From: an uncultured Clostridia bacterium
GTDB taxonomy: Bacteria; Bacillota; Clostridia; Christensenellales; Borkfalkiaceae
Direction of reading: 5' to 3'
NCBI GenBank assembly: GCA_944372525.1
Contig: CALVZL010000023.1
Span: 39,031-103,030, forward strand
DNA length: 64,000 bases
Notes under the pieces: model-generated
Database searches by the model: none
Told to the model about the DNA's origin: nothing
What the model saw: only the letters and a program-made list of their open reading frames with translations
Position numbers and translations under genes: made by a program
In this document: in pieces, positions 1,700 through 46,785 of the stretch
How the letters are laid out: each line of letters opens with the position of its first letter
Numbering within the stretch: the first letter of the stretch is position 1

Positions 1700-1730
1700 A
1701 TCCGCCGGCTCAGCCGGCGGATTTTTCGTT
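1700..1730 (+). terminator. Intrinsic terminator after the PRTase-like gene
   Basis: A 10-bp perfect stem (ATCCGCCGGC / GCCGGCGGAT, 3-nt loop) is followed by TTTTTCGTTT. It is also the first hairpin of repeat copy A. Confidence 0.8.
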
Positions 1731-1950
1731 TCGGGCTGTTTGCTCTCATCCTTTTGGCGGCACGCAAGCCGCGCATAGGACGCTCGGCGACCATGCATTT
1801 GTGATCGGCTGCCCGAAAACAACCCTCTTCCGTGCCTATCGCTCTTCTCCGATTGCCCTATTCCGTTCTTTATTCTTGTTTTTTCCTTTTCTGTGTGCTT
1901 TTCGTTAGGTTCTTTTCTCTCTTTTCCGATCCTTCCGTCCCTCGGCAAAG
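1700..1950 (+). repeat. Dispersed intergenic element, copy A
   Basis: This is the most diverged of four related elements in the window (others near 9850, 20711 and 46532), all in the same orientation. Shared landmarks in order are: the CCGGC...GCCGG hairpin followed by TTTTTCGTTTCGGGCT; a GCGGC-loop-GCCGC hairpin with CGCAA in the loop; an ATGCA block; CCTCTTCCGTGCCTAT; TCTCCGATTGCC; and a long pyrimidine-rich tract. It fills the gap between the convergent PRTase-like gene and pyrE. No coding region is supported here. Confidence 0.65.
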
Positions 1951-1986
1951 CCTTCAAAAAGACGGACCATCCGCACGTTTCAGTAA

Positions 1987-2016
1987 GAAAAAAGGACGGG
2001 TCTGCCGTCCGTTTTT
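1987..2016 (-). terminator. Terminator of the pyr operon
   Basis: Directly after the pyrE stop on the minus strand there is a GGACGG / CCGTCC stem followed by TTTTTTC. Confidence 0.75.
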
Positions 2017-2670
2017 TCATGCGCCGTACTGCGCCCGATATTCCTTCATCGCCTGCAAAAATTCTCTGCCGCCGATCACCCCATCTTCGATCGCTCCGAT
2101 GATATCCTGCATGGTGACGATAGAGCAAACTTTGATGCCGTACTCGTCCGTCGCCTCCTGTGCCGCAGACTTTTCTCCCGTGCCGCGCTCCTGGCGGTCA
2201 ACCGAAAGGAGTATCGCCTCCACCTTCACGTCCGCTTCCCGGCGGAGTTTGGGAAGAATCTCCCGCAGGGCTTTTCCGGAAGTCATGACATCTTCGATGA
2301 TACAGACTTTATCTCCGTCCGCAAGTTTTTGTCCGACAAATAATCCGCCTTCGCCGTGGTCTTTGACTTCCTTTCGGTCAAAACAAAAGCCCACGTCCAC
2401 GCCGTAGCTCTTTGCCAGCGCGATGCTGGCGGAGACGGCGAGCGGAATTCCCTTGTAAGCGGGACCGACGAGCGTCTTTGCCTCAATTCCGTTTTCCATA
2501 TAGCAGGCGGCGTAATATTCGCCGAGCTGCGTGATCTGCGACCCCGTGCGATATTTGCCCGTATTGATGAAATAGGGCGCCCTCCTCCCGCTTTTCAGAA
2601 CGAAATCTCCGAAACAGAGCACCTCGTTCTCCACCATAAACCGAATAAACCGCTGTTTGTAATTCAACAT
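2017..2670 (-). CDS. pyrE: Orotate phosphoribosyltransferase
   Basis: Converts orotate and PRPP to orotidine 5'-phosphate, step five of UMP synthesis. The 217-aa protein has the PRPP-binding loop KVCIIEDVMTSGKALRE (residues 121-137) with its acidic ED pair. The flexible catalytic loop KDHGEGG is at 103-109. It is the last gene of the pyrBCFKDE operon, 9 bp downstream of pyrD, and is followed by a terminator. Length is normal for the family. Confidence 0.96.
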   Translation of the reverse strand: MLNYKQRFIRFMVENEVLCFGDFVLKSGRRAPYFINTGKYRTGSQITQLGEYYAACYMENGIEAKTLVGPAYKGIPLAVSASIALAKSYGVDVGFCFDRKEVKDHGEGGLFVGQKLADGDKVCIIEDVMTSGKALREILPKLRREADVKVEAILLSVDRQERGTGEKSAAQEATDEYGIKVCSIVTMQDIIGAIEDGVIGGREFLQAMKEYRAQYGA

Positions 2671-2679
2671 CTCTTCTCC

Positions 2680-3591
2680 TTATCCGTTCAGCTGCAACGT
2701 CCCCGTCAGGGAAGCGATGCGTCCGATTCCGTAAAAATCGCACCACTCGTTTAGCCCTTCGATGATCTTGGGGCAGGCGAGCGCATCGGTAAAATTCTGC
2801 GTGCCGACCTGTACGGCGGTCGCCCCCGCCATGAGAAACTCGATCGCGTCCTCCGCACAAGTGATCCCTCCCATGCCGATGACGGGCACGGAAACCGCAC
2901 GGCTCGCCTCATAGACCATGCGAACGGCGATCGGACGGATGCCGGCTCCCGATACGCCCCCCGTATTGTTGGCAAGGATCGGTCTCCTGCGGCGGATATC
3001 CACGGCGAGCCCCGTAAAGGTGTTGATGAGAGAAATGCAGTCCGCGCCGCCTTCTTCCGCCGCCGCGGCATTTTTTGCGATGTTCTCCACGTTGGGCGAG
3101 AGTTTGACGATCAGCGGGGTCTTCTGGAGATTTTCCCGCGCAATCTTCGTCACCTCTTTTACGCTCTCGGGACGGATCCCGAACGCCATGCCGCCGCAGC
3201 GGACGTTGGGGCAGGAAATGTTGAGTTCGATGAAATCCGTCTTGCCGTCCAGCAACGCGCAGATCTCCCCGTAATCCCGAAGCGTACTGCCCGCCACGTT
3301 GGCGATCACGCGGGTCTTGGAACGCAGCCATGCGAGATCATGCTCGATGAAATACTCTGCGCCCGGGTTCTGCAATCCCACGGCGTTGAGAATGACGCCG
3401 CGCCCCTCCGCAATGCGGGGGACCGGATTGCCCGCCCGAGGCGCAAGGGTCAGCCCTTTCGTCGCCACTGCTCCCAGACAGGAAATGTCGTATAATTCAT
3501 TGAATTCCCGTCCGAATCCAAAGGTTCCGCTTGCGGGAATGACGGGATTTTTCAGTGTCACGCCGCAGAGCGCAACCGAAAGATCAGCCAT
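2680..3591 (-). CDS. pyrD: Dihydroorotate dehydrogenase, class 1B catalytic subunit
   Basis: FMN-dependent oxidation of dihydroorotate to orotate. In class 1B enzymes it works as a complex with the FAD/2Fe-2S subunit PyrK, which passes electrons to NAD+. The 303-aa protein has N-terminal NPVIPASGTFGFG (15-27) and the catalytic-Cys motif NISCPNVRCGG (124-134, Cys127). A phosphate-binding stretch near the C-terminus contains GGI and VQVGT. The presence of pyrK upstream confirms the 1B type. It begins with ATG after AGAGGAAAA and is separated from pyrK by an unusually long 158-bp gap. Confidence 0.96.
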   Translation of the reverse strand: MADLSVALCGVTLKNPVIPASGTFGFGREFNELYDISCLGAVATKGLTLAPRAGNPVPRIAEGRGVILNAVGLQNPGAEYFIEHDLAWLRSKTRVIANVAGSTLRDYGEICALLDGKTDFIELNISCPNVRCGGMAFGIRPESVKEVTKIARENLQKTPLIVKLSPNVENIAKNAAAAEEGGADCISLINTFTGLAVDIRRRRPILANNTGGVSGAGIRPIAVRMVYEASRAVSVPVIGMGGITCAEDAIEFLMAGATAVQVGTQNFTDALACPKIIEGLNEWCDFYGIGRIASLTGTLQLNG

Positions 3592-3749
3592 AGTTTTTTC
3601 CTCTCATGTTTGTTCATCGGCAGCCGGGAGCGCAGGCGCCGCTGCCGGACAACCCGCTTCCCGCCTTACAGACGGAGATGCGGCCCCCTGCCGCAAACGC
3701 GGCGGCAGCCCTTCGCCTTACAGCTCGCGCAACTCCCCCTCTTGTTCCG
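3592..3749 (-). other. 158-bp pyrK-pyrD spacer with GC-rich hairpin
   Basis: Every other junction in this operon overlaps or is at most 9 bp, so this gap stands out. It contains a 7-bp perfect stem (CTGCCGC / GCGGCAG). On the minus strand CTGTAAGGCG occurs twice, and the first copy echoes the pyrK 3' end (GAGCTGTAA). No gene is evident. It may be a remnant of a duplicated pyrK tail or an mRNA processing site; both are inference. Confidence 0.4.
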
Positions 3750-4502
3750 TTACAGCTCCACTTCGTTGATCTCAAAGACCGGGCCGTCCTTGCAAACCCT
3801 TGCTCGCTGTCCGTCCGTCTTTTTGCAGACGCAGACGAGACATGCCCCGATTCCGCATCCCATGCGCTCTTCGAGCGACACGTAGGCAGGGATCTTTTTC
3901 CCCGTCAGCGCGACTTTGAGCGCGCGAAGCATGGGGGTCGGTCCGCAGGACAGGACGACGTCGGGACGCACCTTGTCGATCTCTCCCATAAACGCCTGTA
4001 CCGCCGTTCCGTGATAGCCGCAGCTGCCGTCGTCCGTCGCAAGCAAAAGCCGTTTTCCCCGACCCATCTCATATTCCATACAGACCGATTCGCGGTCGCG
4101 GAACCCCATGTAGGCATAGATCTCCCGATCGGCGGCATACTGGCGGATCGCCGCAATGAGCGGAAAGATCCCGACGCCGCCGCCGACGACCGCCACCCTC
4201 CGCTGGGAATCCTTCAGAGAAAAGCCGTTGCCGAGCGGAAGCAGGACGGGAAGTTTTTCCCGCGCGCGAAACTCGTTCGCCAGCGAACGCGTTCCCTCCC
4301 CGTTCAGTCGGTAACAGACGGTGATCCGCTCTCCCTCCGCCTTGCAGATCGCAAGCGGACGGCGCAGAGGAAACCCGCGCAGACCGATCATCGCGAATTG
4401 TCCCGCCTGCACGGGGATCGCTTCTTCCGTCGCGAAAGTAAGCGCAAAAATCCCTTCCGCAATCGGCGTGTTTTCCAAAATCGTAGCCGTTATTTCGCGC
4501 AT
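3750..4502 (-). CDS. pyrK: Dihydroorotate dehydrogenase electron-transfer subunit
   Basis: FAD and 2Fe-2S subunit of class 1B dihydroorotate dehydrogenase; moves electrons from PyrD to NAD+. The 250-aa protein has the flavodoxin-reductase FAD part (RRPLAI near 47-52), a nucleotide-binding VGGGVGIFP (106-114), and the cluster motif Cys216-x4-Cys221-x2-Cys224-x12-Cys237. I chose the ATG at 4502 (GGGGGAGAT just upstream) over an upstream in-frame ATG at 4547. That gives a 13-nt overlap with the pyrF stop and a family-like N-terminus (MREITATIL). Confidence 0.95.
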   Translation of the reverse strand: MREITATILENTPIAEGIFALTFATEEAIPVQAGQFAMIGLRGFPLRRPLAICKAEGERITVCYRLNGEGTRSLANEFRAREKLPVLLPLGNGFSLKDSQRRVAVVGGGVGIFPLIAAIRQYAADREIYAYMGFRDRESVCMEYEMGRGKRLLLATDDGSCGYHGTAVQAFMGEIDKVRPDVVLSCGPTPMLRALKVALTGKKIPAYVSLEERMGCGIGACLVCVCKKTDGQRARVCKDGPVFEINEVEL

Positions 4503-5398
4503 ATCTCCCCCAAGACGGCGTGCAGGTCCTCTTTCATCGCCAGACACGCCTTCCGCGCGGCCTCGTCAAACGAGCCTCCGAGTTTGCGATATGCGCACAA
4601 AATCCCCCGCGAGTTGTTGACGATCCCGCCAAGCCCCCGCCCGTCGAAACAGTTCGAAAGCATCTCCGCGCTTCCTCCCTGCGCCCCGTATCCGGGCACG
4701 AGAAAAAAGGTATGCGGCAGACGTGTGCGCAAAATCTTTGCCTCTTCGGGATACGTCGCCCCGACGACCGCCCCGACTGAAGAATATCCGTACGATCCGA
4801 CCGTGTCTGTTCCCCATGCTTCGACCATGTCGCCCATGCATTCATACACCGTCCGTCCGTCTTCAAGCCGCAGGTTCTGCAGCTCTCCCGAGGAAGGATT
4901 GCTCGTCTTGACGAGCACGAAGATCCCGCGATCCCCCTTTCCCTCCTGCACGAAGGGCGCGATCCCGTCCGTCCCGAGATAGCCGTTGACCGTGAGAAAA
5001 TCAGAAGGAAACGCGGAAATCTCCCGATCCCCCGTCGGCGTCTTTCCGAGAAACGCCGCCGCATAGCGGGAAGCGGTCGCGCCGATGTCGTTCCGCTTCG
5101 CGTCCGCGATCACGATCAGCCCTTTTTCCCGCGCGTAGACAAGCGTATCGCGGAATGCGCACAAGCCCTCCGCGCCGTACTGTTCATAATAGGCGATCTG
5201 CACCTTCACGGCGGGGACCAGGTCTGCCACGCTCTCCAAAATACCGCGGTTGAAGGCAAAAATCGCCTTTGCCGCACCCGTAAAATCGCTCACGCCGACG
5301 CGCAGCTCTTCGGGAAGGTAGTCCAGCGAAGTATCCAGCCCCACGCAGGTCGGATTCTGTTTTTCGATGATTTTTTCGATCAAGACGTCTGTAATCAT
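4490..5398 (-). CDS. pyrF: Orotidine 5'-phosphate decarboxylase (long form)
   Basis: Decarboxylates OMP to UMP, the last step of the pathway. At 302 aa it belongs to the longer OMP decarboxylase subfamily, with FCVGLD-like TCVGLDTSLDYLP at residues 17-29. The catalytic D-x-K-x-x-x-D set is in ADAKRNDIGAT (Asp99, Lys101, Asp104). Its ATG overlaps the pyrC stop by 4 nt (ATGA), so translation is coupled, and its end overlaps pyrK. Confidence 0.95.
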   Translation of the reverse strand: MITDVLIEKIIEKQNPTCVGLDTSLDYLPEELRVGVSDFTGAAKAIFAFNRGILESVADLVPAVKVQIAYYEQYGAEGLCAFRDTLVYAREKGLIVIADAKRNDIGATASRYAAAFLGKTPTGDREISAFPSDFLTVNGYLGTDGIAPFVQEGKGDRGIFVLVKTSNPSSGELQNLRLEDGRTVYECMGDMVEAWGTDTVGSYGYSSVGAVVGATYPEEAKILRTRLPHTFFLVPGYGAQGGSAEMLSNCFDGRGLGGIVNNSRGILCAYRKLGGSFDEAARKACLAMKEDLHAVLGEICAK

Positions 5399-6666
5399 TT
5401 TTCCGCCTCCCCTCCCTCTCTGTATTTGATCTCGCCGTCCACAATGGTAAACTTTATCTTTCCGAACACTTTTCTCCCCTTAAACGGCGTATTTTTTCCT
5501 TTGGAAACGAACTGCCCGGGATCGATCGTCCACTCCGCGTTGAGATCGGCGATCGTAAGATCGGCCGGGGCTCCCCTGACGATCCTGCCCCCCTGCAGAG
5601 AGAGGATAGAAGCGGGATTCGCGCTCATAAGGGCGGCCAGTTCGGACAGGGAGAGCGGCCCCTCTTTCGCGAGCATGGTATAGGAGAGCGCAAACGAAGT
5701 TTCCAGTCCGCTGATCCCGAAGGCGGCAAGCGCATATTCCACCCGTTTCTCGTCCTCGTGATGCGGCGCATGATCGGTGACGATACAGTCCAGCGTCCCG
5801 TCGCGCAGACCTTCGATGACGGCGACGCGATCTTTCTCCTCCCGCAGCGGCGGATTGACCTTGCTGTCCGTATCGAAATCGCGGATCGCCTCGTCCGTCA
5901 GCGTAAAGTAATGCGGACAGGTCTCTGCCGTCACCTGCACGCCGCGCGCCTTCGCCTCGCGGATGAGCTGCACGCCGCTGTATGTAGAGACGTGACAGAT
6001 GTGAACGGGAAGGTTGAGGCTCTCCGCGAGGCAGATCTCTCGCGCGATCATAATGTCCTCCGCGGCGCGCATGCTCCCCTTCAGTCCGGTCAGGGTCGAA
6101 TAATACCCCTCGTGGACAACCCCTCCGTCCACGAGAGCTTTGTCCTCGCAATGGCAGAGGCATTTCAATCCGAAATCGGCGGCATACTGCATCGCCTGCG
6201 CCATGATCTTTGCGGACGGAACGGACGTTCCGTCTTCGGAGATCGCCACCGCACCCGCCGCCTTCATCGCGCCGATCGCGGCGAGTTCCTCTCCTCTCTG
6301 TCCCTTGGTGATCGCTCCGATGGGATGCACCTTACACAGTCCCGTCTCCTTCGCGCGCGTTTTGAGATAGGTCACGACGACCTTGTTGTCGACGACAGGG
6401 TCGGTATTCGGCATGCAGCAGATCTGTGTAAACCCGCCCTTTACCGCCGCGCGGCAGCCGCTTGTCATGTCCTCTTTCCGCTCAAATCCCGGTTCGCGCA
6501 GGTGGACGTGCATGTCGATAAGCCCGGGAAAAACGGTGAGTCCGGTCAGATCCAACCCCTCTCCCTCGATCTGCGGAGCGATCTCCGCAATTTTTCCCTC
6601 TTCGATGCGGAGATCGAGAGAGCGCACGCCCTCTTCGGTCACCACGTTCCCGTGTTTCAGTATCAT
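5395..6666 (-). CDS. pyrC: Dihydroorotase
   Basis: Zinc amidohydrolase that cyclises carbamoyl-aspartate to dihydroorotate. The 423-aa length and the GLIDMHVHLREPG motif (His53 and His55 metal ligands) mark the class I bacterial form usual in Firmicutes. Later histidines fit: HCE near 170, HICHVS near 228 and DHAPHH near 304. It overlaps pyrB by 4 nt upstream and pyrF by 4 nt downstream (ATGA junctions). Confidence 0.96.
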   Translation of the reverse strand: MILKHGNVVTEEGVRSLDLRIEEGKIAEIAPQIEGEGLDLTGLTVFPGLIDMHVHLREPGFERKEDMTSGCRAAVKGGFTQICCMPNTDPVVDNKVVVTYLKTRAKETGLCKVHPIGAITKGQRGEELAAIGAMKAAGAVAISEDGTSVPSAKIMAQAMQYAADFGLKCLCHCEDKALVDGGVVHEGYYSTLTGLKGSMRAAEDIMIAREICLAESLNLPVHICHVSTYSGVQLIREAKARGVQVTAETCPHYFTLTDEAIRDFDTDSKVNPPLREEKDRVAVIEGLRDGTLDCIVTDHAPHHEDEKRVEYALAAFGISGLETSFALSYTMLAKEGPLSLSELAALMSANPASILSLQGGRIVRGAPADLTIADLNAEWTIDPGQFVSKGKNTPFKGRKVFGKIKFTIVDGEIKYREGGEAEK

Positions 6667-7577
6667 ACTTCCTCCTTGCAGATGAGAGACAGCACCGCCA
6701 TTCGCACGGCAACGCCGGAGAGTACCTGCTCTTCGATCCGGCTCTGATCGGAATCAATGACGCCGCTCGTAAGCTCCACGCCGCGATTGACGGGACCGGG
6801 ATGCAACACCGCCGCGTTCGGTTTTGCGCCGCGCAGCACCTCTTCGTTTACGCCGTAAAACCGCGCATATTCTCCCAGCGAGGGAAAATTGCCCGCATGC
6901 TGACGTTCGAGCTGAATGCGAAGCCCCATCACGACGTCCGCGCCTTCGACCGCCTCTTCGCGGGAGGCGCAAAGTTTTGCCCCCATCTGCTCGATCCCCG
7001 CGGGAACGAGCGTGCGGGGCGCAAACATGCGCACTTCCGCTCCCATTGCCGTCAGCCCGAACAAATTGCTCTTCGCGACCCGGGAATGAAGGATATCGCC
7101 CAGAATGGCGACGCGCAGTCCCTTGATCGTTCCGAAGCGCTCCTTCATCGTGAGCATATCCAGAAGCGCCTGTGTGGGATGCTCGTTCATTCCGTCGCCC
7201 GCGTTGACGACATGGGCGCACACCGTATCGGCAAGCAGCTTCGGCGCGCCGCTCATGGGATGCCGCATGACGATCGCATCCGTACGCATGGCATCGAGCG
7301 TCTTGCCCGTATCGACCAGAGTTTCCCCCTTTTGCACGGAAGACGACGCCACCGAAATATTGACGACGCGCGCGCCCAGATATTTCGCCGCAAACTCAAA
7401 ACTCGTACGGGTGCGGGTGCTGTTTTCATAAAACAAAATGACGACAGATCTGTCCCGCAACTCGCTAAAACGCTTCTCGCCCCGCCGCAAACGGTCTTTC
7501 ATCCAGGCGGAAAGAGACAGAATTTCCTCGATCTCCTCCGCGGCATAACCATACAAACCCAACAGGTCCTGTCTCAA
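6663..7577 (-). CDS. pyrB: Aspartate carbamoyltransferase catalytic subunit
   Basis: Condenses carbamoyl phosphate with aspartate, the first committed step. The 304-aa protein has the carbamoyl-phosphate loop STRTRTSFE (53-61) and HPTQALLD. I placed the start at the TTG at 7575-7577 because GGGAGGAAGGG lies just upstream and the encoded N-terminus (LRQDLLGLYG) matches the family length. An in-frame ATG at 7688 would add 37 atypical residues encoded across the leader terminator. No pyrI regulatory subunit is present. First gene of pyrBCFKDE. Confidence 0.94.
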   Translation of the reverse strand: MRQDLLGLYGYAAEEIEEILSLSAWMKDRLRRGEKRFSELRDRSVVILFYENSTRTRTSFEFAAKYLGARVVNISVASSSVQKGETLVDTGKTLDAMRTDAIVMRHPMSGAPKLLADTVCAHVVNAGDGMNEHPTQALLDMLTMKERFGTIKGLRVAILGDILHSRVAKSNLFGLTAMGAEVRMFAPRTLVPAGIEQMGAKLCASREEAVEGADVVMGLRIQLERQHAGNFPSLGEYARFYGVNEEVLRGAKPNAAVLHPGPVNRGVELTSGVIDSDQSRIEEQVLSGVAVRMAVLSLICKEEV

Positions 7578-7608
7578 TTCCCTTCCTCCCGTTCTTCGTT
7601 TCCGTATG

Positions 7609-7647
7609 CAAAGAAAAATAAGCCCTGCGGCGTGCGCCACAAGACTT
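7609..7647 (-). terminator. Attenuator terminator in the pyr leader
   Basis: On the minus strand a 12-bp stem with G-U pairs (AAGTCTTGTGGC / GCCGCAGGGCTT, loop GCAC) is followed by ATTTTTCTTT. It lies between the pyr promoter and the pyrB TTG. An upstream GCAAGAC could pair with GTCTTGT to form a competing antiterminator. Confidence 0.75.
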
Positions 7648-7715
7648 CTCCGAAATTGTGTGATCCGATTATGTTGTCTTGCCGACATCGCACTGCCGCA
7701 CCCAGATATCGGTTC

Positions 7716-7744
7716 ATTTTAGCATAATGCGCAGAACTTGTAAA
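7716..7744 (-). promoter_or_regulatory. pyrBCFKDE promoter
   Basis: TTTACA (7739-7744), 17-bp spacer, TAAAAT (7716-7721), reading leftward. The transcription start would be near 7709, giving a leader of about 130 nt that contains the attenuator. Confidence 0.8.
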
Positions 7745-7750
7745 GCGCTT

Positions 7751-8446
7751 TCAATATATTTCAACCAAAGAAAACCGCACTTTGTCGCAGGAAGTGAGAT
7801 AATACTCGATGCCGTTCCGCTTCGTCCGCAAAGGGAAATATGTCCCTCCGTGCAAGTGTCCGAACACCGCCGCGTCGACCGCGTTTTCCTCAAAGAGTTG
7901 CGTGAACAGCGTATCCTCTCCGCGGATCCCGAAGGGAGGATAATGAATGAGCGCGATGAGCTTGTCCCCCTCCCGCCGCATCTTCTTTGCCTCAGCAAAC
8001 GCGAGACGGAACCGTTCCCCCTCGCGCAAATAGAGCACTCTGTCGTGCTCGGTAAAATCCGGGCTTCCGGGACAGGTCCAGCCGCGCGACCCCGCGATCA
8101 CAAAGTTGCCCGCTCTGACGCAATCGTTCTGCAGGAAATGGAAAGACGCATCCGGCGCTGCCGCCCGCACGCGCGTGATCCCGTTCCACCAAAAATCGTG
8201 ATTGCCGCGGACAAAGACCTTTGTTCCGGGCAGCGGAGCAAGCGAACGGACGTCGTACATTCCCTCATCGAGATACATTCCCCAAGAGGTATCGCCTCCG
8301 ATGAGCACGAGATCGTCTTGCGTGACTTTGTTCCGCCAATCCGTCTTGATTTTTTCGAAATGCCCCTCCCATTCCTGTCCGAAGACATTCATCGGTTTGT
8401 TGGACATTCCGGAGAGGTGCAGATCGCTGATCGCGAAAACTTTCAT
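7751..8446 (-). CDS. Metallophosphoesterase
   Basis: A 231-aa calcineurin-like phosphoesterase with all metal-site motifs: ISDLHLSG (Asp8, His10), GGDTSWG (Asp52), GNHDFWW (Asn82, His83), IHYPP (His168) and GHLHGG (His197, His199). The NHDFWWNG and GDTSWG variants resemble a bacterial subgroup typified by DR1119-like proteins (from memory). The substrate is unknown. I chose the ATG at 8446 because the protein must begin at MKVFAISDLH. It has no SD, and its -10 box ends 6 bp before the ATG, so the mRNA looks leaderless. Confidence 0.9.
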   Translation of the reverse strand: MKVFAISDLHLSGMSNKPMNVFGQEWEGHFEKIKTDWRNKVTQDDLVLIGGDTSWGMYLDEGMYDVRSLAPLPGTKVFVRGNHDFWWNGITRVRAAAPDASFHFLQNDCVRAGNFVIAGSRGWTCPGSPDFTEHDRVLYLREGERFRLAFAEAKKMRREGDKLIALIHYPPFGIRGEDTLFTQLFEENAVDAAVFGHLHGGTYFPLRTKRNGIEYYLTSCDKVRFSLVEIY

Positions 8447-8452
8447 ACAAAA

Positions 8453-8481
8453 ATAATAGCATATCCGCTCGGAAAACGCAA
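8453..8481 (-). promoter_or_regulatory. Leaderless-type promoter of the metallophosphoesterase
   Basis: TTGCGT (8476-8481), 17 bp, TATTAT (8453-8458), then only 6 bp to the ATG at 8446. Transcription should begin at or next to the start codon. Confidence 0.7.
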
Positions 8482-8505
8482 GCGATTTTTTCGCCGCGCC
8501 AAACG

Positions 8506-9849: not shown

Positions 9850-10125
9850 TACCATCCGCCGGCTTACCCGATTGCTTTTCGGTTTCGCACTGCCGATTCT
9901 GATTGCCGACGGCGCGCAAGAGCTTCTGCGACGGTCTGCCGCTCATGCGCTTGTTGCTTGTCACCCGTCGTCGGGCCTCTTTTTTGTTTACCGTCTTCGC
10001 TCGCCGATTGCTTCGCTCCGTCTTTCCTTTTCCTTCCTTTTTTCTGCTTGTCTTTTGATCAGGTTCTTCCTCTCTTTTTGCCTTCCTGTCCTACCTTTTT
10101 TCTCCTCTTTTTCTCCATCGGCAAT
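9850..10125 (+). repeat. Dispersed intergenic element, copy B
   Basis: This occupies most of the 432-bp gap between the helicase and the GMP synthase ATP-PPase. It has a degraded first hairpin (CCGCCGGCTTACCCG), TTTTCGGTTTCG, GGCGCGCAAGAG, the highly conserved CGCCGATTGCTTCGCTCCG followed by TCTTTCCTTTTCC, then CAGGTTCTTC, TGCCTTCCTGTCC and TCTCCATCGGCA. This is the only copy lying between two genes of the same direction; it is downstream of the guaA-like gene. No coding region is visible. Confidence 0.75.
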
Positions 10126-10157
10126 GCTGATCTCGCTCCTTTACACGGTGGGGAGCG

Positions 10158-10199
10158 TTATACAAAAAAAGCGCACGTTGTAAAACGCACGCTTTTCTC
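10158..10199 (-). terminator. Terminator of the stand-alone GMP synthase ATP-PPase gene
   Basis: Minus-strand AAAAGCG...CGCTTTT hairpin with a small internal loop, ending in a TTTTTTT run. Confidence 0.65.
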
Positions 10200-20586: not shown

Positions 20587-20615
20587 TTGACAAAGGGCAG
20601 AAAATACTTTATAAT
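20587..20615 (+). promoter_or_regulatory. tRNA-Gly promoter
   Basis: Perfect consensus TTGACA, 17 bp, TATAAT, ending 11 bp before the tRNA. Confidence 0.9.
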
Positions 20616-20701: not shown

Positions 20702-20710
20702 TCAATAAAA

Positions 20711-20738
20711 GACCATCGGCCAAGCCGGTGGTCTTTCC
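20711..20738 (+). terminator. Terminator after tRNA-Gly
   Basis: 10-bp stem GACCATCGGC / GCCGGTGGTC with one G-T pair, 3-nt loop, then TTTCCGTTT. It doubles as the first hairpin of repeat copy C. Confidence 0.75.
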
Positions 20739-20935
20739 GTTTCGGGCTATTAGCCCTAATACCACCAGCGGCGCGCAAGAGCGCATATGACGGCCTTTCT
20801 GCCATGCAATTTCTTGCTTGCGCCTTATCGACGAACCTCTTTCGTGCCTATATGCTTCGCCGATTGCTTCGCTCCCTCTTCCCTTCTTCTTTCTTTTTTG
20901 CCTTCCCGTCGTTCCCCTCTTTTCCCCATCGGAAA
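20711..20935 (+). repeat. Dispersed intergenic element, copy C
   Basis: Fills the 347-bp gap between tRNA-Gly and the convergent protease gene. Landmarks are the CGGC/GCCG hairpin, CTTTCCGTTTCGGGCT, GGCGCGCAAGAGCGC, ATGCAATTT, CCTCTTTCGTGCCTATAT, CGCCGATTGCTTCGCTCC, a C/T-rich tract with TGCCTTCCCGTC, and CCCCATCGG. It is shorter in the pyrimidine tract than copies B and D. No coding potential was found. Confidence 0.8.
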
Positions 20936-20973
20936 CCCCGTCGCAGGCCCGCGTACGATCTGCGGGTTTGAAG

Positions 20974-21017
20974 ATACCAAAAGAGAACAGCCCGATCGGG
21001 CTGTTCTCTTTTGGTAT
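20974..21017 (-). terminator. 44-nt perfect palindrome, terminator of the protease gene
   Basis: The two 22-nt halves are exact reverse complements with no unpaired loop in DNA (centre CCCGATCGGG). It lies just past the protease stop and contains short T and A runs, so it can act in both directions. Confidence 0.8.
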
Positions 21018-39936: not shown

Positions 39937-39943
39937 ACTCTGC

Positions 39944-40897
39944 TTATTCGAACCGATCGGATACCGCTTCCGCCGCGCCCTCTTCCGTCCCTTCCAGAAT
40001 CAAAGTCGCACATCGGATCCGTCTGCGCAACGTTTCAAGCCGCGCGCCGTCCTCGGTGGAGGCGAGGCGCTCGTTTTCTCGGCAAAGCCTGTCTGCGACC
40101 AACCACTTGCGGAGGAAAAAGAACGTCACTCCCAAAAAGACGAGCGCAAGCGCTCCGAACCCAACCGTGAAGAAGAGCGGAACGGACGTCGTCGTGCGAA
40201 CGATGAAGTTGGCGCTGACCGCCGCTCCGATCCCCATCAGAACAAAGACGGCGGCAACCGCGACCAAACGGAACAGATAATACTTCCTGTTCTCTCCGAA
40301 TGCCGCGCGCCTCTTTTCCTGTTCGGATCCGAATTTTTCCGCAAGAGGCGCCTCTTCCGCGACGTCCTCCTCTCTCGCGCGCCTCAGCCGCTCGCTCACC
40401 CGTGCAAGCACATAAGCGCGCACCTCTTCTTTAGATTCGGAGAGTTGCTGCGCATACTTTTCCAGGTAGAGCGGTTCGTCGTCCTGAAAGTTTTTCGTCC
40501 TGGCAAGCCAAAGTTTCTGTGCCGCCGCGACAGACTCTCCGTCGTAGACCAACGCGTCGCCGCACAGCTGTTCCGCCTGCGCATATTCGCCCTTCTCGAT
40601 CCACATCTCGGCGGAGGCGAGCAGTTTATCCCGTTCGGCATATGCCTCTTGCCGAATTTTTTCCCTCCGCTCCAGTTCCTTCTGAAGCTGCGAAGGCGTA
40701 AGTCCGACGAGGTTCTCGTCGTACTCTTCGGTCTCCTCCTCGGGAAAATCTACCGTGATCTCCTCTTCCGCGATCGGCTCCTCCGATTCATCCTGTTCGG
40801 GGACAAGTTCGTCCTCCACGCGCTCGATATTGCCGTCTGCCGTGCGTTTGACCCTGATTTTCCGTTCATTCTCGCGATCGATGATCCTTTCTTCCAT
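39944..40897 (-). CDS. Hypothetical two-helix membrane protein downstream of ispE
   Basis: 317 aa, family not recognised. A very acidic N-terminal 60 residues is followed by a helical, TPR-like stretch (about 65-150: AEMWIEKGEYAQAEQLCGDALVYDG), two membrane helices (about 210-230 and 240-262), and a basic C-terminal helix. SD AAGGAGACGG, 11 bp after ispE, so it is co-transcribed. Topology suggests a cytoplasmic N-terminal scaffold held at the membrane. Confidence 0.7.
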   Translation of the reverse strand: MEERIIDRENERKIRVKRTADGNIERVEDELVPEQDESEEPIAEEEITVDFPEEETEEYDENLVGLTPSQLQKELERREKIRQEAYAERDKLLASAEMWIEKGEYAQAEQLCGDALVYDGESVAAAQKLWLARTKNFQDDEPLYLEKYAQQLSESKEEVRAYVLARVSERLRRAREEDVAEEAPLAEKFGSEQEKRRAAFGENRKYYLFRLVAVAAVFVLMGIGAAVSANFIVRTTTSVPLFFTVGFGALALVFLGVTFFFLRKWLVADRLCRENERLASTEDGARLETLRRRIRCATLILEGTEEGAAEAVSDRFE

Positions 40898-40908
40898 GCC
40901 GTCTCCTT

Positions 40909-41826
40909 TTATTCACCGGAAATTTTTTCCTCCGCGCTCAGCACGAAAGGATTTTTCCACTGCCTCTGTTCCTCCGACGGAACAATGCTGTCCGCGCATA
41001 TCGCGCGGAATTTGCCCCGATAGCGGCTCTTTGCCCACTCACAGAGCTCTCTCGTTTCGAAGATCGCAAACGACGCGCTTCCCGAACCGGTCATGCTTGC
41101 TCCCGCGGGCGAAAAACTCTGCGCCGCGCGATACGCCTCTTCCGCTTCTCTGTTCAGCGCGACCGCCGCAGGATAGAGGTCGTTGGAAAAGAGCTTCGCC
41201 GCCCACATCGGATGCTCTCCGAGCAATTCCGCCGCCCGTTCCGTTCGTCCCGCTCCGGGCGCGGGAAGTTCGTCGAACTTGGCATAACACGCCGCCGCAG
41301 AGACCCCGCTTCGCGGACAAAGAATCAGAAAATGCAATTTCGGGATCTTTTGCAGGAATTCCAGCCGATCCCCCCGTCCGCGCATCCTCGCAAATCCTCC
41401 GCGAAGCAGAAACCCAGTATCGCTGCCCAGTCCGTCCGCCAGCGCTTTGAGCTCCTCTTCCGTTCCAACGCCGTACAGCAGAGAAAGCGCGCGCAGGACG
41501 CCTGCCGCGTCCGCGGAGGATCCGCCCAGCCCTGCACCGACGGGAATATTCTTATAAATAACGAGCTCCGCGCCCTTTGTTCCGAACGCCGAAACGAATG
41601 CCTCTCCCGCAATCTGTGCATTGTTGCGCTCGGGCGGGATCTCTTCGCTCCCCATTCCGTACATCTGCACGCAGATCAATCCGTCCCGCCGCCGTCTTGC
41701 CACGACGCGGTCGCTGAGGCCGACGGTGCAGACGATCGAGTCGATGAGGTGATATCCCTCTGCGCGCCCCGTAACGTCGAGTGTAAGGTTGAGCTTGGCA
41801 TAGGCATTGACTTTCGCCGTGTTCAT
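40909..41826 (-). CDS. ispE: 4-diphosphocytidyl-2-C-methyl-D-erythritol kinase
   Basis: GHMP kinase of the non-mevalonate isoprenoid pathway. The 305-aa protein has YAKLNLTLDV (9-18), the ATP loop PVGAGLGGSSADAAG (95-109) and MTGSGSASFA near 265. I chose the ATG at 41826 (MNTAKVNAYAKLNL). It has no SD, and the -10 box ends 7 bp before it. The link with veg, two genes away, recalls the B. subtilis yabG-veg-sspF-ispE neighbourhood. Confidence 0.95.
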   Translation of the reverse strand: MNTAKVNAYAKLNLTLDVTGRAEGYHLIDSIVCTVGLSDRVVARRRRDGLICVQMYGMGSEEIPPERNNAQIAGEAFVSAFGTKGAELVIYKNIPVGAGLGGSSADAAGVLRALSLLYGVGTEEELKALADGLGSDTGFLLRGGFARMRGRGDRLEFLQKIPKLHFLILCPRSGVSAAACYAKFDELPAPGAGRTERAAELLGEHPMWAAKLFSNDLYPAAVALNREAEEAYRAAQSFSPAGASMTGSGSASFAIFETRELCEWAKSRYRGKFRAICADSIVPSEEQRQWKNPFVLSAEEKISGE

Positions 41827-41833
41827 AGCAGCG

Positions 41834-41862
41834 ATTATAGCACATTTGCTCTCTTTTGGCAA
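41834..41862 (-). promoter_or_regulatory. Leaderless-type promoter of ispE
   Basis: TTGCCA (41857-41862), 17 bp, TATAAT (41834-41839), then 7 bp to the ATG at 41826. Confidence 0.78.
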
Positions 41863-41871
41863 TAAAAATCA

Positions 41872-41911
41872 CGAAAAAACACGCCGCCCGAACAAGAATC
41901 GGCGCGGCGTG
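41872..41911 (-). terminator. Terminator of the SPOCS/LysM gene
   Basis: Stem ACGCCGC...GCGGCGT with inner CCGA/TCGG pairing, then GTTTTTTC on the minus strand. Confidence 0.78.
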
Positions 41912-41924
41912 CAGTCTTTTCCTT

Positions 41925-43406
41925 TTAGTTTCCGAAACTTTTTTTCCGATAAATGATGACTCTCTGCCCCTCTTTGACGGGAAAAACGAGGTCAGGATTG
42001 CTGGCGGTCACGTCTTCGGGCGATTTTTTGAGCGACTTGGAGAGCTCCCACAGCCCATCTCCCGCGCGAGGCAGGCAGACGCTCACGGCGCTGTCGCATA
42101 CGGGCAGTTTTTCGCCCTCTTCTGCAGACGAGAGAGCGCGCGCATATGTCTTGCGTTCCCTGCGATAGGTGAGCTTGAGCGTGGCCTCCGCATCGATCTC
42201 CCCCTCCTGTTTTTGCCGCGCCGACATCCCGCACACAAACGCCGACACTTCACTCACTCCCTCTTCGCGCACGGGAACGGAGAAAGGCAGACTGATTTCA
42301 ATCCCGCGGTGCGCTCCGTCCGCGCCGAGCACGAGCAGCGTTGCCGCGGCGACCCCTTCCGCGCGCCTGCCGTCCGGGGAAGAAACAAGATTTGCCTCCG
42401 CGCGCTGCAGTGTGACCGCCATGAAGACATCGGAGAAATCGACGGGCGCGGAAAGCGCCGCTTTCCCGGAGATCCTTTCGGTTGCGGATACCGTCTCTTC
42501 CGCCACACTTCCCGCCAATTCCGCAAACGTGAGTTTGAGTTCGCATTCGGTGGAAAATGCATCGGCGACGGCGTCGGCTGCGGTCTCTTCGTAGACGCAT
42601 CCTTCGGCGAGCAGTGTAAGTTCCGCCGCAATGCGGCATTTTCCCGCCTCCTCGTCCGAATCGGCGTGGAGCACCGCATCGGAAACGCTTACATGCGCTT
42701 CGCCCGTCCGCCCGGAAAGCGCCGCTTCGCAGGGGATCTCCGCCCGAAAAGGGATCAGACGCTCAAAGGAGACGAGCCGATCTTCTTTCGTCGCAAGAAT
42801 GCAGAGATTGACCTCGCCTTCCGCAAGGAGCACGCCTTCCTGCACGGAGACGGAGGAAATGCCCGCCGTCTCGGCATGCAAAAGAATATCGCCGAGCGCT
42901 TCCGTCTCAAACTCGTCCTCCGCCTCGGTCACTCCTCCGCACAGATGGGCAATCGGCAGCGTCACTGTCTCCCGTTTTGCCACAAATTCCCCGTCGGTCA
43001 AATAAGGAAACACCTGTTCGCAAAACAGCTCGATCTCCGCACCGAACAGCGCCGTAAGATAGACGCTTGCTCCCTCCCGGCGTACGGAGATATTCTCTGC
43101 CGTCAGGCAAATGCGCGCGGTACAGGCGGGGCAGCATCCCTCATCCTGCGCCTTTGCAGAAAACTCCACTCCTTTTTCCGCACGGCAGACTTTTTTGTCC
43201 GCGTCTTCATACACGATAAAAAAACGTGCCCTGCCGCGATAGCGGACTTCTCCGCTGTCTGCCTCGGCCTCTGCCGCCGTCGCGCTTGCGCTCACGGCAA
43301 GCACCGTTTCCACTTCTCCGCCGAATCGGCATTCCACCGCAGTCTGGGCGCCGAACGAACGGACTTTGCCGTATCCGCGAAAAGTCTCCGTCTGCGTTTT
43401 GATCAT
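41925..43406 (-). CDS. DUF3794 (SPOCS) protein with C-terminal LysM domain
   Basis: A 493-aa protein with repeated beta-rich SPOCS modules (segments such as VSVQEGVLLAEGEVNLCILATKEDRLVSFERLIPF). A C-terminal LysM follows (about 440-490: LWELSKSLKKSPEDVTASNPDL...GQRVIIY). SPOCS/LysM proteins are linked to spore coat or cortex assembly in Clostridia, which suggests an endospore former. I chose the ATG at 43406 with GGGAG, 6 bp. Divergent from veg. Confidence 0.88.
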   Translation of the reverse strand: MIKTQTETFRGYGKVRSFGAQTAVECRFGGEVETVLAVSASATAAEAEADSGEVRYRGRARFFIVYEDADKKVCRAEKGVEFSAKAQDEGCCPACTARICLTAENISVRREGASVYLTALFGAEIELFCEQVFPYLTDGEFVAKRETVTLPIAHLCGGVTEAEDEFETEALGDILLHAETAGISSVSVQEGVLLAEGEVNLCILATKEDRLVSFERLIPFRAEIPCEAALSGRTGEAHVSVSDAVLHADSDEEAGKCRIAAELTLLAEGCVYEETAADAVADAFSTECELKLTFAELAGSVAEETVSATERISGKAALSAPVDFSDVFMAVTLQRAEANLVSSPDGRRAEGVAAATLLVLGADGAHRGIEISLPFSVPVREEGVSEVSAFVCGMSARQKQEGEIDAEATLKLTYRRERKTYARALSSAEEGEKLPVCDSAVSVCLPRAGDGLWELSKSLKKSPEDVTASNPDLVFPVKEGQRVIIYRKKSFGN

Positions 43407-43504
43407 ATCACACTCCCGATAATGTTTTCCCTCCATTGTATGCGCCCTCAGAGCACCGTATGCAGGGAAAAACGCAGCGCGAAGAAGTATTTTTTGAGGT
43501 GCGG

Positions 43505-43525
43505 ATGTCCATCATAACAACATGA
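43505..43525 (+). CDS. Possible six-codon upstream ORF coupled to veg
   Basis: ATG-TCC-ATC-ATA-ACA-ACA-TGA (MSIITT) has GAGGTG just upstream, and its TGA overlaps the veg ATG (ATGA). veg itself has no SD, so this mini-ORF may deliver ribosomes to it. Conservation would be needed to be sure. Confidence 0.4.
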   Translation: MSIITT

Positions 43526-43773
43526 TCAAACCCAACTGCGACATTCAATCGGTCAAAAAAACGATCGCGGACTATTTTCGCCAACAAGTGGACGTCACCG
43601 TCAATTTGGGCAGAAACAAACGTCTGCGTTATTGCGGAGAACTTTCGGGGATCTATCCCGCGCTCTTTACCGTTCGCCCCAACGACAAGAGTTTTCTGGG
43701 AAAGACCTCTTATTCTTATGCGGAGGTGCTCTGCGGAAGCGTGCTCATCCGACCGGCGAAAAAGAGCAAATAA
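43522..43773 (+). CDS. veg: Veg family protein
   Basis: 83 aa. Matches the small Veg family (KKTIADYFRQQVDVTVNLGRNKR, then GELSGIYPALFTVRPND and SYSYAEVL). In B. subtilis Veg is highly transcribed and has been tied to biofilm control and spore outgrowth; its mechanism is unclear. It lies near ispE, as in Bacillus, with the SPOCS/LysM gene in between. No SD before the ATG; see the upstream mini-ORF. Confidence 0.88.
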   Translation: MIKPNCDIQSVKKTIADYFRQQVDVTVNLGRNKRLRYCGELSGIYPALFTVRPNDKSFLGKTSYSYAEVLCGSVLIRPAKKSK

Positions 43774-43800
43774 AAACGCGCCTTCCTTGCGGAAAGCGCG
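43774..43800 (-). terminator. Terminator of the YcxB-like gene
   Basis: CGCGC...GCGCG stem with inner TTCC/GGAA pairing, then TTTTTATTT on the minus strand. Confidence 0.7.
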
Positions 43801-43807
43801 AATATGC

Positions 43808-44341
43808 TCAGCTTGTCTTCTTTTTCTTTACTTTATTTTTATAAAGGCTGCCCATTTTTACGCCGAGGAACACAGACAGATCTTCTGCCCTTCCCTCCGT
43901 CATCCCGTCTTTGCGAAGAATATACATCAGATAACGATTGTAATAAAGTAGCCAAAATTCATCGTATTCGACGACGGAAGTAAAATCGGAATACGCCCCT
44001 TGCGCGTGTTCCGACATGCCTGTCTCCGTCATGCCGTCGATTTCAAAGTGATCTTCATAAAAAGAGTACTTCACCTCCGCCTCTTTTCCCTTCAGGTGCT
44101 TCTTCAGATTTCTGCGGACAAGCCAATCGAAAAAATACAGACTGAACGCCAAAAAAAACGCGGCCATAACAAACAGAAACACAGAAAATCCGATGTCTTC
44201 GGGAAAGAACGCGATCCACAGGATTCCCAGAACAATAAAGACCGCACCCGCGAGCGCCATCCACATCCGGATCTTTTTCCCGATGGTACGCGACACCTGC
44301 AAATTGTTTTCGTAATCGTTTTTCGTTTCGTTAATAAACAT
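43808..44341 (-). CDS. YcxB-like membrane protein
   Basis: 177 aa with two adjacent membrane helices (about 28-50 and 53-73), then a cytoplasmic part of the YcxB-like type (VKYSFYEDHFEIDG...YSDFTSVVEYDEFWLLYYNRYLMYILRKD). Role unknown across the family. SD GGAGGATCC. A TTGACA-18-TAGAAT promoter lies directly upstream. Confidence 0.8.
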   Translation of the reverse strand: MFINETKNDYENNLQVSRTIGKKIRMWMALAGAVFIVLGILWIAFFPEDIGFSVFLFVMAAFFLAFSLYFFDWLVRRNLKKHLKGKEAEVKYSFYEDHFEIDGMTETGMSEHAQGAYSDFTSVVEYDEFWLLYYNRYLMYILRKDGMTEGRAEDLSVFLGVKMGSLYKNKVKKKKTS

Positions 44342-44364
44342 TCGGATCCTCCGCCGTTTTTTTT

Positions 44365-44394
44365 ATTCTACCACAAATAACAGATCCCTGTCAA
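44365..44394 (-). promoter_or_regulatory. Promoter of the YcxB-like gene
   Basis: TTGACA (44389-44394), 18 bp, TAGAAT (44365-44370), leftward. Confidence 0.65.
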
Positions 44395-44419
44395 GCGCCT
44401 TCGCGATACGAAACCCGCG

Positions 44420-45817
44420 TTAGGCTCCCGCGAGCGCTTTGCGCCTCATCCTCCTTTTTCTGTTTTCGCCGAACACAACGACAGCACAATACGTGCCGAT
44501 CAAAAAAAGATCTGCCGCTAACCATGCGATAGGGTTGGACATGCACGCCCCCGTAAATCCCCACAGACGCACGAACACAAACGCGGTGAGCACCCGCCCG
44601 CCCAACTCCGTCACGCCCGCAAGCGTCGTCACGGCGCTCTTTCCGATTCCCTGCAGCGTATTCCGGAAGACAAAAATCGTCCCAAGAAGCAGATACCCGG
44701 CGCTCTGGAAGAGTAAATACTGTCTCCCGTACGCCATGACCTCCTCATAATACAACGCGGCGGCTCCTCCCTTTTCGGTGTCGAGAAAGAGCCCCATGAG
44801 CGGCGTATAAAGCCCCATGCAAAAGGCAAATCCCAACACGGCGGAAATCACCGTGCACAACATGCTCGCCGCCACGCCGCGCTTCACGCGGTCCATTCTT
44901 CCCGCGCCGTAATTCTGCCCCGCATACGTCGCCATTGCCGTCCCGAGCGCGGGAAAGGTCTGATTGGCAAGATTGTCGATTTTCGACGCCGCCGTATACG
45001 CCGTCGCGACGCCCGGATAATCCGTCTCAAGCCCGTTCAGAGCCGTCTGCTGAACAATGCATCCGATCGCGGTGATAGAGAACTGCAGTGCCATGGGGAG
45101 CCCGATGACGATCTGTGCCCGCGCCTCTGCAAAACTCCATTTCCAGTCTGCCCGTTTTAACCGCAGCTCCGGATAGCGTTTGAGCATATAGACAAGGCAA
45201 GCCACGCCCGAAAGAAATTGAGAGAGAATGGTTGCGGTCGCCGCCCCGCGGTAATGCATGCCGAATCCGACGATGAAGAGAAAATCCAGTCCGACGTTGA
45301 GCACGGCCGCCACAATGAGAAAGACGAGCGGCGTTTTGCTGTCGCCGATCGCGCGCAGCACGCTCGCGAGTATGTTGTAAAACGCCGTCGCGGCAATGCC
45401 GGAGAAAATGACAACCAGATAGCTGTACGCGTAGTCGTAATACTGCGCGGGCGTATTCATCAGACGAAGCAGCGGTCCCGCGAGCGGGACGGCGACCGCC
45501 GAGACGGCGACCGCGATCACGGCGGCAAGCAAAAAGCTCATCGCGACGGATTTGCGCACGCCCTCCGCGTCGTTGGCGCCGAACCGCTGCGCGACGCGCA
45601 CGCCGAATCCCGCGGTGAGTCCGTTGATAAAGCCGAGGACAAGGAAAGAGACCGATCCGGTCAGTCCGACCCCCGTGAAGGCGTCGGAATTCACCGTATG
45701 CCCGACGATGACGGTATCCGCCATATTGTAGAGCTGCTGGAAGATGTTTCCCAAAAAAACGGGAAGCACAAACGTGAGAATGAGCTTTAAGGGATTTCCC
45801 TTCGTCAGATCTTTCAT
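44420..45817 (-). CDS. MATE-family efflux transporter
   Basis: A 465-aa, 12-helix cation-coupled multidrug/toxin exporter. N-terminal GNPLKLILTFVLPVFLGNIFQQLYNMADTVIVG is typical. Two homologous halves; the second begins near 235 with QIVIGLPMALQFSITAIG. The ATG at 45817 has no SD, and an in-frame TGA two codons before it rules out an upstream start. A 19-codon ORF ends 12 bp upstream and may couple translation. No linked regulator. Confidence 0.93.
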   Translation of the reverse strand: MKDLTKGNPLKLILTFVLPVFLGNIFQQLYNMADTVIVGHTVNSDAFTGVGLTGSVSFLVLGFINGLTAGFGVRVAQRFGANDAEGVRKSVAMSFLLAAVIAVAVSAVAVPLAGPLLRLMNTPAQYYDYAYSYLVVIFSGIAATAFYNILASVLRAIGDSKTPLVFLIVAAVLNVGLDFLFIVGFGMHYRGAATATILSQFLSGVACLVYMLKRYPELRLKRADWKWSFAEARAQIVIGLPMALQFSITAIGCIVQQTALNGLETDYPGVATAYTAASKIDNLANQTFPALGTAMATYAGQNYGAGRMDRVKRGVAASMLCTVISAVLGFAFCMGLYTPLMGLFLDTEKGGAAALYYEEVMAYGRQYLLFQSAGYLLLGTIFVFRNTLQGIGKSAVTTLAGVTELGGRVLTAFVFVRLWGFTGACMSNPIAWLAADLFLIGTYCAVVVFGENRKRRMRRKALAGA

Positions 45818-45828
45818 ATTTCAGGCCA

Positions 45829-45888
45829 TTATCCCGCGGCGATTCCGCCGCCAAAGATGCTCCGTAACCATTTCAAAAATCCTGTCAT
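45829..45888 (-). CDS. Possible 19-aa hydrophobic peptide upstream of the MATE gene
   Basis: MTGFLKWLRSIFGGGIAAG, stop TAA. It begins about 9 nt after the predicted transcript start and ends 12 bp before the MATE start codon. The sequence could form an amphipathic membrane helix. There is no SD. It could be a leader peptide, a small membrane protein or chance. Confidence 0.35.
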   Translation of the reverse strand: MTGFLKWLRSIFGGGIAAG

Positions 45889-45903
45889 TTTCAGATGCAC
45901 TAT

Positions 45904-45931
45904 ATCATACTCACGGCAAAAAAAAATGCAA
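45904..45931 (-). promoter_or_regulatory. Promoter of the MATE transcript
   Basis: TTGCAT (45926-45931), 16 bp, TATGAT (45904-45909), leftward. Confidence 0.6.
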
Positions 45932-46062
45932 CTGTTTTCCGTCACTTTTTTCCCTTTTGCAAAAAATAAAAAAATTTGTAAAAAATCGCGCTTTTTTCGA
46001 TTGACTGCCCCCGCCGCGTGGTATAAAAATACAAAACGCTGACAAAGCGACCGAGGTGAAAC

Positions 46063-46512
46063 ATGATCCAATATTCTCTGAAAGCGCTCACCGCAGACGA
46101 GCTTTCCTTCAAAGTAAATCCCATCAAGACAAAGCCGGATACGAAGTTTGAGATCAAGCCCCTTTTTTCCCGCCAGATCAGACAGGCAAACGAAAATCCC
46201 AAGATCAACATTGTCATTCTTGAATGCAAAATCGAGAGCACGGAAGAAGCTCCCAAGCCTTTCAATCTGCTCGCGCGTTTCGTGGGCGTATTCGAAGTGG
46301 AAAATATGGAGACAGACGAAGACAAACGCATCTTTGCGATCAACGCAACGGAGACAATCTTCCCCTATCTGCGCGCAAGCGTGAGCAATCTGACGGCGGA
46401 TGCGCTCATCAATCCGCTTACGCTGCCCGTCGTCTCCGGAGCGACCCTTTTCCCGGATGACCGGGGCCCCGACCGCTACACGCTCAATTTCGATCCGACC
46501 GTCCTCAACTGA
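46063..46512 (+). CDS. SecB-like chaperone protein
   Basis: 149 aa resembling the SecB fold family: beta-rich core (FEIKPLFSRQIRQ, INIVILECKIES), then FAINATETIFPYLRASVSNLTADALINPLTLPVVS. That block corresponds to the conserved SecB stretch with F-PY-R-x-V-S and NP. In Proteobacteria SecB guides preproteins to SecA; in Firmicutes such proteins are sporadic and may act differently. SD GAGGTG, with a weak promoter upstream (TTGACT, TATAAA). Followed by a terminator and repeat D. Confidence 0.75.
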   Translation: MIQYSLKALTADELSFKVNPIKTKPDTKFEIKPLFSRQIRQANENPKINIVILECKIESTEEAPKPFNLLARFVGVFEVENMETDEDKRIFAINATETIFPYLRASVSNLTADALINPLTLPVVSGATLFPDDRGPDRYTLNFDPTVLN

Positions 46513-46531
46513 ATGACGAAGGAAGATACAC

Positions 46532-46560
46532 AATCCACCGGTTAGACCGGTGGATTTTCC
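46532..46560 (+). terminator. Terminator of the SecB-like gene
   Basis: 11-bp perfect stem AATCCACCGGT / ACCGGTGGATT, 3-nt loop, then TTCCGTTT. It is also the first hairpin of repeat copy D. Confidence 0.75.
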
Positions 46561-46785
46561 GTTTCCGGCTCAAGGACTTGATGGCCGAAGGCGCGCAAGA
46601 GCGCCTGTGACAGCCTTCGGTGATGCAATTTTTGCTCCCTGTCAGCAAGTCTCTTTCGTGCATATTGTTCTCCGCCGATTGCTTCGTTCCGTCTTTCCTT
46701 TTCCGTTTCTTTTCTGCTGCCTTTTCAGCAAGTTGCTCTTATTCTGCCTTCCTGTTATTCTTCTCTCTTTCTCCATCGGCACCGC
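46532..46785 (+). repeat. Dispersed intergenic element, copy D
   Basis: Occupies the 352-bp gap between the convergent SecB-like and hydrolase genes. It has the CCGG hairpin, TTTTCCGTTTCCGGCT, a long stem built on GGCGC-GCAAGA-GCGCC enclosed by CCGAAGG/CCTTCGG, ATGCAATTTTTGCT, CTCTTTCGTGCATAT, CGCCGATTGCTTCGTTCCG, TCTTTCCTTTTCCGTTTC, CAGCAAGTTGCTC, TGCCTTCCTGTTATTC and TCTCCATCGGCA. It is the best-preserved copy together with B. Confidence 0.8.

Follow-up and report, generated by a model that had tools for sequence, protein, structure and literature searches.

The 64,000-nucleotide (nt) window analysed here, from contig CALVZL010000023.1 of an uncultured Clostridia bacterium, contains four short intergenic repeats (copies A–D). 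They are non-autonomous, decayed copies derived from an insertion sequence (IS) of the IS200 group (IS200/IS605 family, Y1 transposase), a group that very probably inserts behind terminator hairpins, with the hairpin likely to form part of the target that is selected. The identity of the copies is firm, because a full element on contig C22 of the same genome has the same two ends around an intact tnpA, the 152-amino-acid product of which matches Pfam Y1_Tnp (PF01797, E 8.5e-40). The arrangement is seen in every sample of related elements that we scored: in nearly all cases, the left end (LE) of such an element abuts the T-rich tail of a hairpin.

In the tnpA sense, the C22 element consists of an LE hairpin, a leader, tnpA, the hairpins of a 3′ untranslated region (UTR), an A-rich stretch and a right-end (RE) hairpin. 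Copies A–D consist of an LE (a GTATA-like start, an A-rich stretch and a hairpin), a purine-rich spacer, the tnpA 3′ UTR, an A-rich stretch and the RE hairpin. They have no transposase gene, yet matches to an RE module and a visible LE are present, as in the autonomous element. Subterminal hairpins at both ends and the absence of terminal inverted repeats are traits of the IS200/IS605 family; in some window copies the hairpins are degenerate. The A-rich stretches were identified by eye at both ends and may act as guides that pair with the cleavage site. A preliminary description of the four repeats had listed their conserved blocks on the strand opposite to the tnpA sense, and each can now be placed: its CCGG hairpin is the RE, TTTTCCGTTTCGGGCT is the A-rich stretch (read as TTTTC) together with a GGGCT/AGCCC hairpin, GCGCGCAAGAGCGC is a 3′ UTR hairpin, ATGCAATTT lies directly past the tnpA stop codon and TCTCCATCGG is the inner LE. 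The long C/T tract is the purine-rich spacer, which replaces most of tnpA (window positions ~1820–1935, 9985–10100, 20845–20920 and 46655–46765) and contains a repeated GCCGATTGCTTCGCTCCG block; a BLAST comparison with C22 found no counterpart for it, only chance matches no longer than 10 nt. The view that no named family fits these repeats gives way to the match of both ends to an IS200-group IS in the same genome, the kind of IS or MITE match that the preliminary description had itself named as speaking against its proposal.

The copies are 275–314 nt long and all lie with the tnpA sense on the minus strand, at 1690–1987 (A; left limit uncertain by ~10 nt), 9850–10163 (B; left limit uncertain), 20704–20978 (C; beginning ~5 nt past a tRNA gene) and 46526–46816 (D; left limit uncertain). 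Direct reading of the window sequence bears out the fixed block order and single orientation first reported, and likewise the absence of terminal inverted repeats and of any obvious gene. The settings also stand as described, three convergent and one co-directional: A and D are each flanked by convergent genes, C has a plus-strand tRNA gene on one side and a minus-strand gene on the other, and both neighbours of B are minus-strand genes. The right ends had been drawn 31–43 nt too short; placed at ~1987, 10163, 20978 and 46816, they bring the second (LE) hairpin inside the element. A sequence-only model of the RE module (125 nt, covering the end of the tnpA reading region, the 3′ UTR and the RE) matches the window at these four places only (E up to 1), all on the minus strand (A, 1701–1822; B, 9855–9974; C, 20713–20834; D, 46534–46648). 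Upstream of the tRNA gene that adjoins copy C, at 20587–20615, is a sigma-70 promoter matching the consensus at 12 of 12 positions.

At the right end of each copy, the element stops beside the T tract, read as an A run, of a minus-strand hairpin. The targets are a hairpin and T tract at 1988–2010 (A) and 10164–10190 (B), a hairpin with a T-rich tail at 46817–46849 (D) and, for C, a long palindrome with a T run at 20979–21016 that a simple hairpin scan did not list, all on the minus strand. To score the same arrangement elsewhere, we required one hairpin with four or more pairs and an energy of −8 kcal/mol or below, with a T-rich tail next to its foot at the LE boundary. Relatives of TnpA were taken from GTDB genomes (the best 80 of at least 556) and from the genus; an LE model gave 84 matches (E up to 1e-3) in 111 loci, and removal of 2 duplicates and 6 loci with less than 50 nt of flank left 76. 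The rule is passed by 72 of the 76. The four failures (L046, L058, L104 and L146) are counted as misses, though an upstream hairpin is visible by eye in each. In the same loci, runs of four or more T outside called open reading frames (ORFs) pass in 114 of 849 cases (Fisher p 1e-50); a second control (39/350) is set aside because its sampling was uneven. Rough ORF calling places a co-directional gene upstream in 58 of the relatives, an opposite one in 10 and none in 8, and the median distance from the stop codon of a co-directional neighbour to the element is 51.5 nt. The distance from stem foot to cut is 2–9 nt in 71 loci. With the cut placed by requiring TT before it and G after it, which is possible in 72 of the 76 loci, the cut site reads TTNTT in 66 of these 72; since the last TT and the following G are imposed, only the first three bases are independent. 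The RE itself frequently ends in TTTATT.

Smaller samples behave in the same way. A set based on the Rfam family STnc490, drawn from 299 genomes of the phylum, comprises 29 loci (the C22 copy of the window's own genome was excluded and three matches have no locus), some of them multiple copies of one element in one genome; 25 of 28 pass, with misses at L207, L220 and L222, and L214 is too short to score. Of nine loci searched, five match STnc490 over the leader; none of these matches reaches the family's gathering score, and they lie on the tnpA sense strand. A passage of the paper that named STnc490 places it antisense to the start of the IS200 transposase (PMC2515195). Among 20 further stretches from the genus, 11 have no LE match and 2 too little flank, and six of the other seven pass (L297 fails). 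Among the window genome's own copies, 17 of 19 pass, and in genome G004 all three copies scored do so. A Hafnia locus (L228) is positive by eye. Of four distant Y1 elements fetched, L299 lies by eye behind a hairpin and T tract and L300 has no clear hairpin; the other two (L301 and L302) stand outside the scored sets, as do the Bacilli plasmid elements L225–L227. Each of the scored samples thus shows a strong association between IS200-group elements and terminator-like hairpins.

The annotated IS200C of Escherichia coli provides sites with known empty counterparts. A search of 5,426 E. coli genomes matches 3,068, of which 2,035 contain at least 80% of the element. We sampled 18 chromosomal copies from 60 among the matches listed, together with three loci from a plasmid collection, and the hairpin reaches −12.5 kcal/mol or lower in all 21 loci, which represent 16 distinct sites; of the TTNTT sites in the flanks of 12 IS200C loci, 54 of 209 pass at −8 and 23 of 209 at −12 kcal/mol. 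The copies lie behind brnQ, uhpT, pqqU, yfeX, htpX, gndA, emrB, luxS, plaP, potE, ahpF and a prophage gene, and the intergenic palindrome between glcA and sslE has received IS200C on opposite strands in two strains (L242 and L246). The pentamer immediately preceding the element is TTTTT at nine of the 16 sites, TTATT and TTGTT at two each, and TAATT, TCGTT and TCATT at one each. TTNTT is therefore present at 13 of 16 sites and a final TT at all 16, a count free of the bias that the imposed cut introduces among the relatives. Queries made by joining the two flanks are matched over at least 80% of their length in 5,344 (ahpF), 4,165 (pqqU) and 4,037 (glcA) of the 5,426 genomes. The glcA join is identical to the empty site over 200 of 200 positions in two strains, indicating that there was no gain or loss of target sequence at glcA, as is characteristic of IS200/IS605 elements; the ahpF and pqqU joins reach 99.5% at best. 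Because the empty E. coli sites carry the hairpin, the hairpin preceded the insertion.

We propose that TnpA, supplied in trans, would excise the element as a single strand and insert it on the 3′ side of a T-rich target with which the A-rich guide pairs, as family precedent suggests. By position, insertion follows immediately after a hairpin with a T-rich tract, in most cases that of an intrinsic terminator, and the element points the same way as the gene terminated there; this accounts for both the uniform orientation and the convergent-gene setting of the window copies. A hairpin with a T-rich cut site behind it looks like the RE of the element itself, and for this reason the hairpin, folded in single-stranded DNA, may be part of what is selected. 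Insertion would be nearly harmless, because the old hairpin and T tract remain in place, and, on the opposite strand, the element's guides may appear as T-rich tails that follow hairpins. The wider proposal, that IS200-group transposases home to terminators by picking a folded hairpin and T-rich cut site that mimic their own RE, and so settle almost harmlessly across phyla, we hold to be somewhat better than even. These data are best read as TnpA recognising the hairpin, although they fall short of proof.

Several observations weigh against this proposal. The sampled sites belong to related elements; copies A–D are too decayed to show mobility, and transposition was not seen; and the RE hairpin of copy B is largely broken. 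The window genome's own copies were scored with the boundary floated over 45 positions, more loosely than the 76 relatives; for the copy at C23:33555 this scoring chose a poor hairpin, and the two that do not pass, on contigs C2 and C9, adjoin another repeat and are not scorable. That repeat, TGTCAAACTAAGTGCAACAGTTG, is the same at both loci (L021, C9, 3′ of 52520; L036, C2, 3′ of 17980), lies near contig ends and is probably another IS. The energy rule, moreover, does not separate recognition of the hairpin from selection after insertion. The main rival explanation takes up this last point: TnpA would accept any suitable T-rich pentamer, and insertions away from terminators would be lost by selection. 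Terminators do offer T tracts at harmless places, 15 of the 16 E. coli sites are outside annotated genes and, as the 54 of 209 TTNTT sites show, hairpins near T runs are not rare in E. coli. Against survivorship alone, only 114 of 849 T runs outside called ORFs at the relatives' loci are accompanied by such a hairpin, and the plasmid locus L223 lies between two annotated minus-strand hypothetical coding sequences, apparently one split gene, and is still behind a strong palindrome. We regard survivorship as less likely than not, and clearly less probable than a target that includes the hairpin.

A second alternative, which we consider doubtful, is that the host uses the copies as terminators or insulators for the plus-strand gene and that the hairpins persist for that reason. 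Terminator-like hairpins do face the plus strand at the RE of A (1698–1724), C (20713–20731) and D (46532–46556) and at the LE of D (46791–46806); the remaining LE hairpins are that of C (20948–20966, plus strand, by sequence reading) and the degenerate one of A (1962–1974, minus strand). In an alignment of 21 copies, the RE stem is paired in 86% of cells, with changes on both sides at four of its eight pairs. Transposition needs these same features, however; the RE hairpin of copy B is largely broken, although the first hairpin had been said to pair in every copy; and relatives do without the element at site D. The region of site D is matched in 96 of 101 genomes of the genus, and in eight of nine relative loci inspected (out of 19 fetched) the flanking genes are 60–130 nt apart with no element, as against 375 nt in the window genome; the ninth (G094, 324-nt gap) has no element within the 175 nt viewed. 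A minus-strand T tract beside a hairpin is visible in three of these relatives (L166, L169 and L172). The suggestion of a 3′-end insulator may thus be right in effect, in that the copies lie in terminators and have terminator-like hairpins of their own.

That the repeats are a structured non-coding RNA family of the host is very improbable and is largely refuted by the ends and 3′ UTR that they share with a transposase-bearing element, despite the conserved block order and a second hairpin that pairs in 95% of cells; a scan of the window at Rfam gathering scores finds only a tRNA, although the inner blocks do come from a structured tnpA 3′ UTR. The compensated stems on which that idea was built receive weak support. 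RNAalifold gives −4.55 kcal/mol for the 21 copies, and four imposed hairpins (pairing at 80, 95, 77 and 86%) pair in 84.4% of cells, compared with 82.7% in shuffles (3/500 as high). Eleven cells are changed on both sides, a number reached by 30 of 500 shuffles. Sliding the partners reduces pairing to 28–46%, indicating that the stems are real, and weak covariation is to be expected of decaying copies.

The anticipated further copies of the element exist. Copy A finds 11 places and copy D 13 in the 1.375-Mb genome, each including itself, and the RE module model finds 27. The module is matched in 46 of the 101 genus genomes and is abundant in G100 (34 matches), the window's genome (27) and G114 (12). 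G100 and G114 are sister species whose matches are apparently separate amplifications. G004 has four near-identical 330-nt copies, as recent spread would leave, spanning AATAAATATCC to TTATAC and followed by an A run in all three that have flank present, whereas BLAST identities within the window's genome are mostly 68–88%.

Full elements have a further conserved feature. In 62 of them, the tnpA leader pairs with sequence within the 60 nt that follow the stop codon, giving a helix of 8–16 pairs, the sequence of which varies widely (for example, CCTGCCAG, CGACCGCCA, TTGCGACTGAC and GGTTTACCA). The test covered L034 and the relatives L043–L122 (62 of 64, with L075 and L097 dropped). The mean helix score is 27.8, compared with 19.4 (standard deviation 0.56) when leaders and UTRs are re-dealt, and none of 2,000 permutations reaches it; relatedness inflates this test, though many sequence types share the register. 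In L072 the best helix is located elsewhere. Inspection by eye places its 5′ arm close behind a TATAAT-like box, and we therefore read the helix as a feature of the mRNA; it might also draw both ends of the single-stranded DNA together. The window copies retain only the 3′ arm.

The closest known relatives are the annotated members of the IS200 group, IS200C of E. coli and ISSep3 of Staphylococcus epidermidis, the Y1 TnpA proteins of which are 62–68% identical to that of C22 and which share the LE and RE hairpins, the A-rich stretches and a leader related to STnc490; the window copies differ in having a purine-rich spacer in place of tnpA. Excerpts of earlier work describe a single-strand circular intermediate as a trait of the IS200/IS605 family (PMC6006769, PMC5934647) and, for IS608, guides 5′ of each hairpin that pair with the target (PMC5934647). 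Palindrome-associated transposable elements (PATEs) are likewise short and made of IS200/IS605 ends only, such as a 271-nt element of Halanaerobium reported, in part of its description, to retain the LE, the final 58 nt of tnpB and the RE (PMC7290912). Copies A–D differ from PATEs in deriving from a tnpA-only element and in their siting in terminators.

The preliminary suggestion of a REP-like element was the nearest of its candidates, because REPs and IS200 are both Y1-transposase hairpin systems, as stated in a section of PMC6006769. REP/RAYT systems and REP-targeting ISs share with the elements described here a Y1 enzyme, guide-plus-hairpin DNA and palindromes as insertion targets (sections of PMC6006769 and PMC1525189). 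REPs are 21–65 nt long according to the same partial sources, and the targets here vary in sequence and share structure. REP identity itself is rejected: A–D are 275–314 nt long, and both the ends of C22 and the match of its enzyme to annotated IS200C point to the IS200 type. A more general caution is that repeats rich in hairpins and located close to gene ends may represent decayed IS200 ends and not RNAs.

A literature search that did not reach the main IS200/IS605 reviews found no earlier description of terminator targeting by the IS200 group, and one may exist. Such targeting fits the excess of IS200 between convergent genes, where it is one of ten over-represented families in the portion of PMC9208149 that treats them. 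If correct, it is a plain target rule that explains benign positions and can be tested on any insertion. Group IIC introns offer the nearest parallel, as they insert behind Rho-independent terminator or attC stem-loops (an extract of PMC7923331). Copies A–D are not themselves such introns: they have no group II core, the only Rfam match in the window is a tRNA and they are just 275–314 nt long. Both are mobile elements at terminator stem-loops, but group IIC introns are retroelements with a ribozyme, whereas the IS200 group would represent a single-strand DNA transposon that homes to terminators as those introns do.

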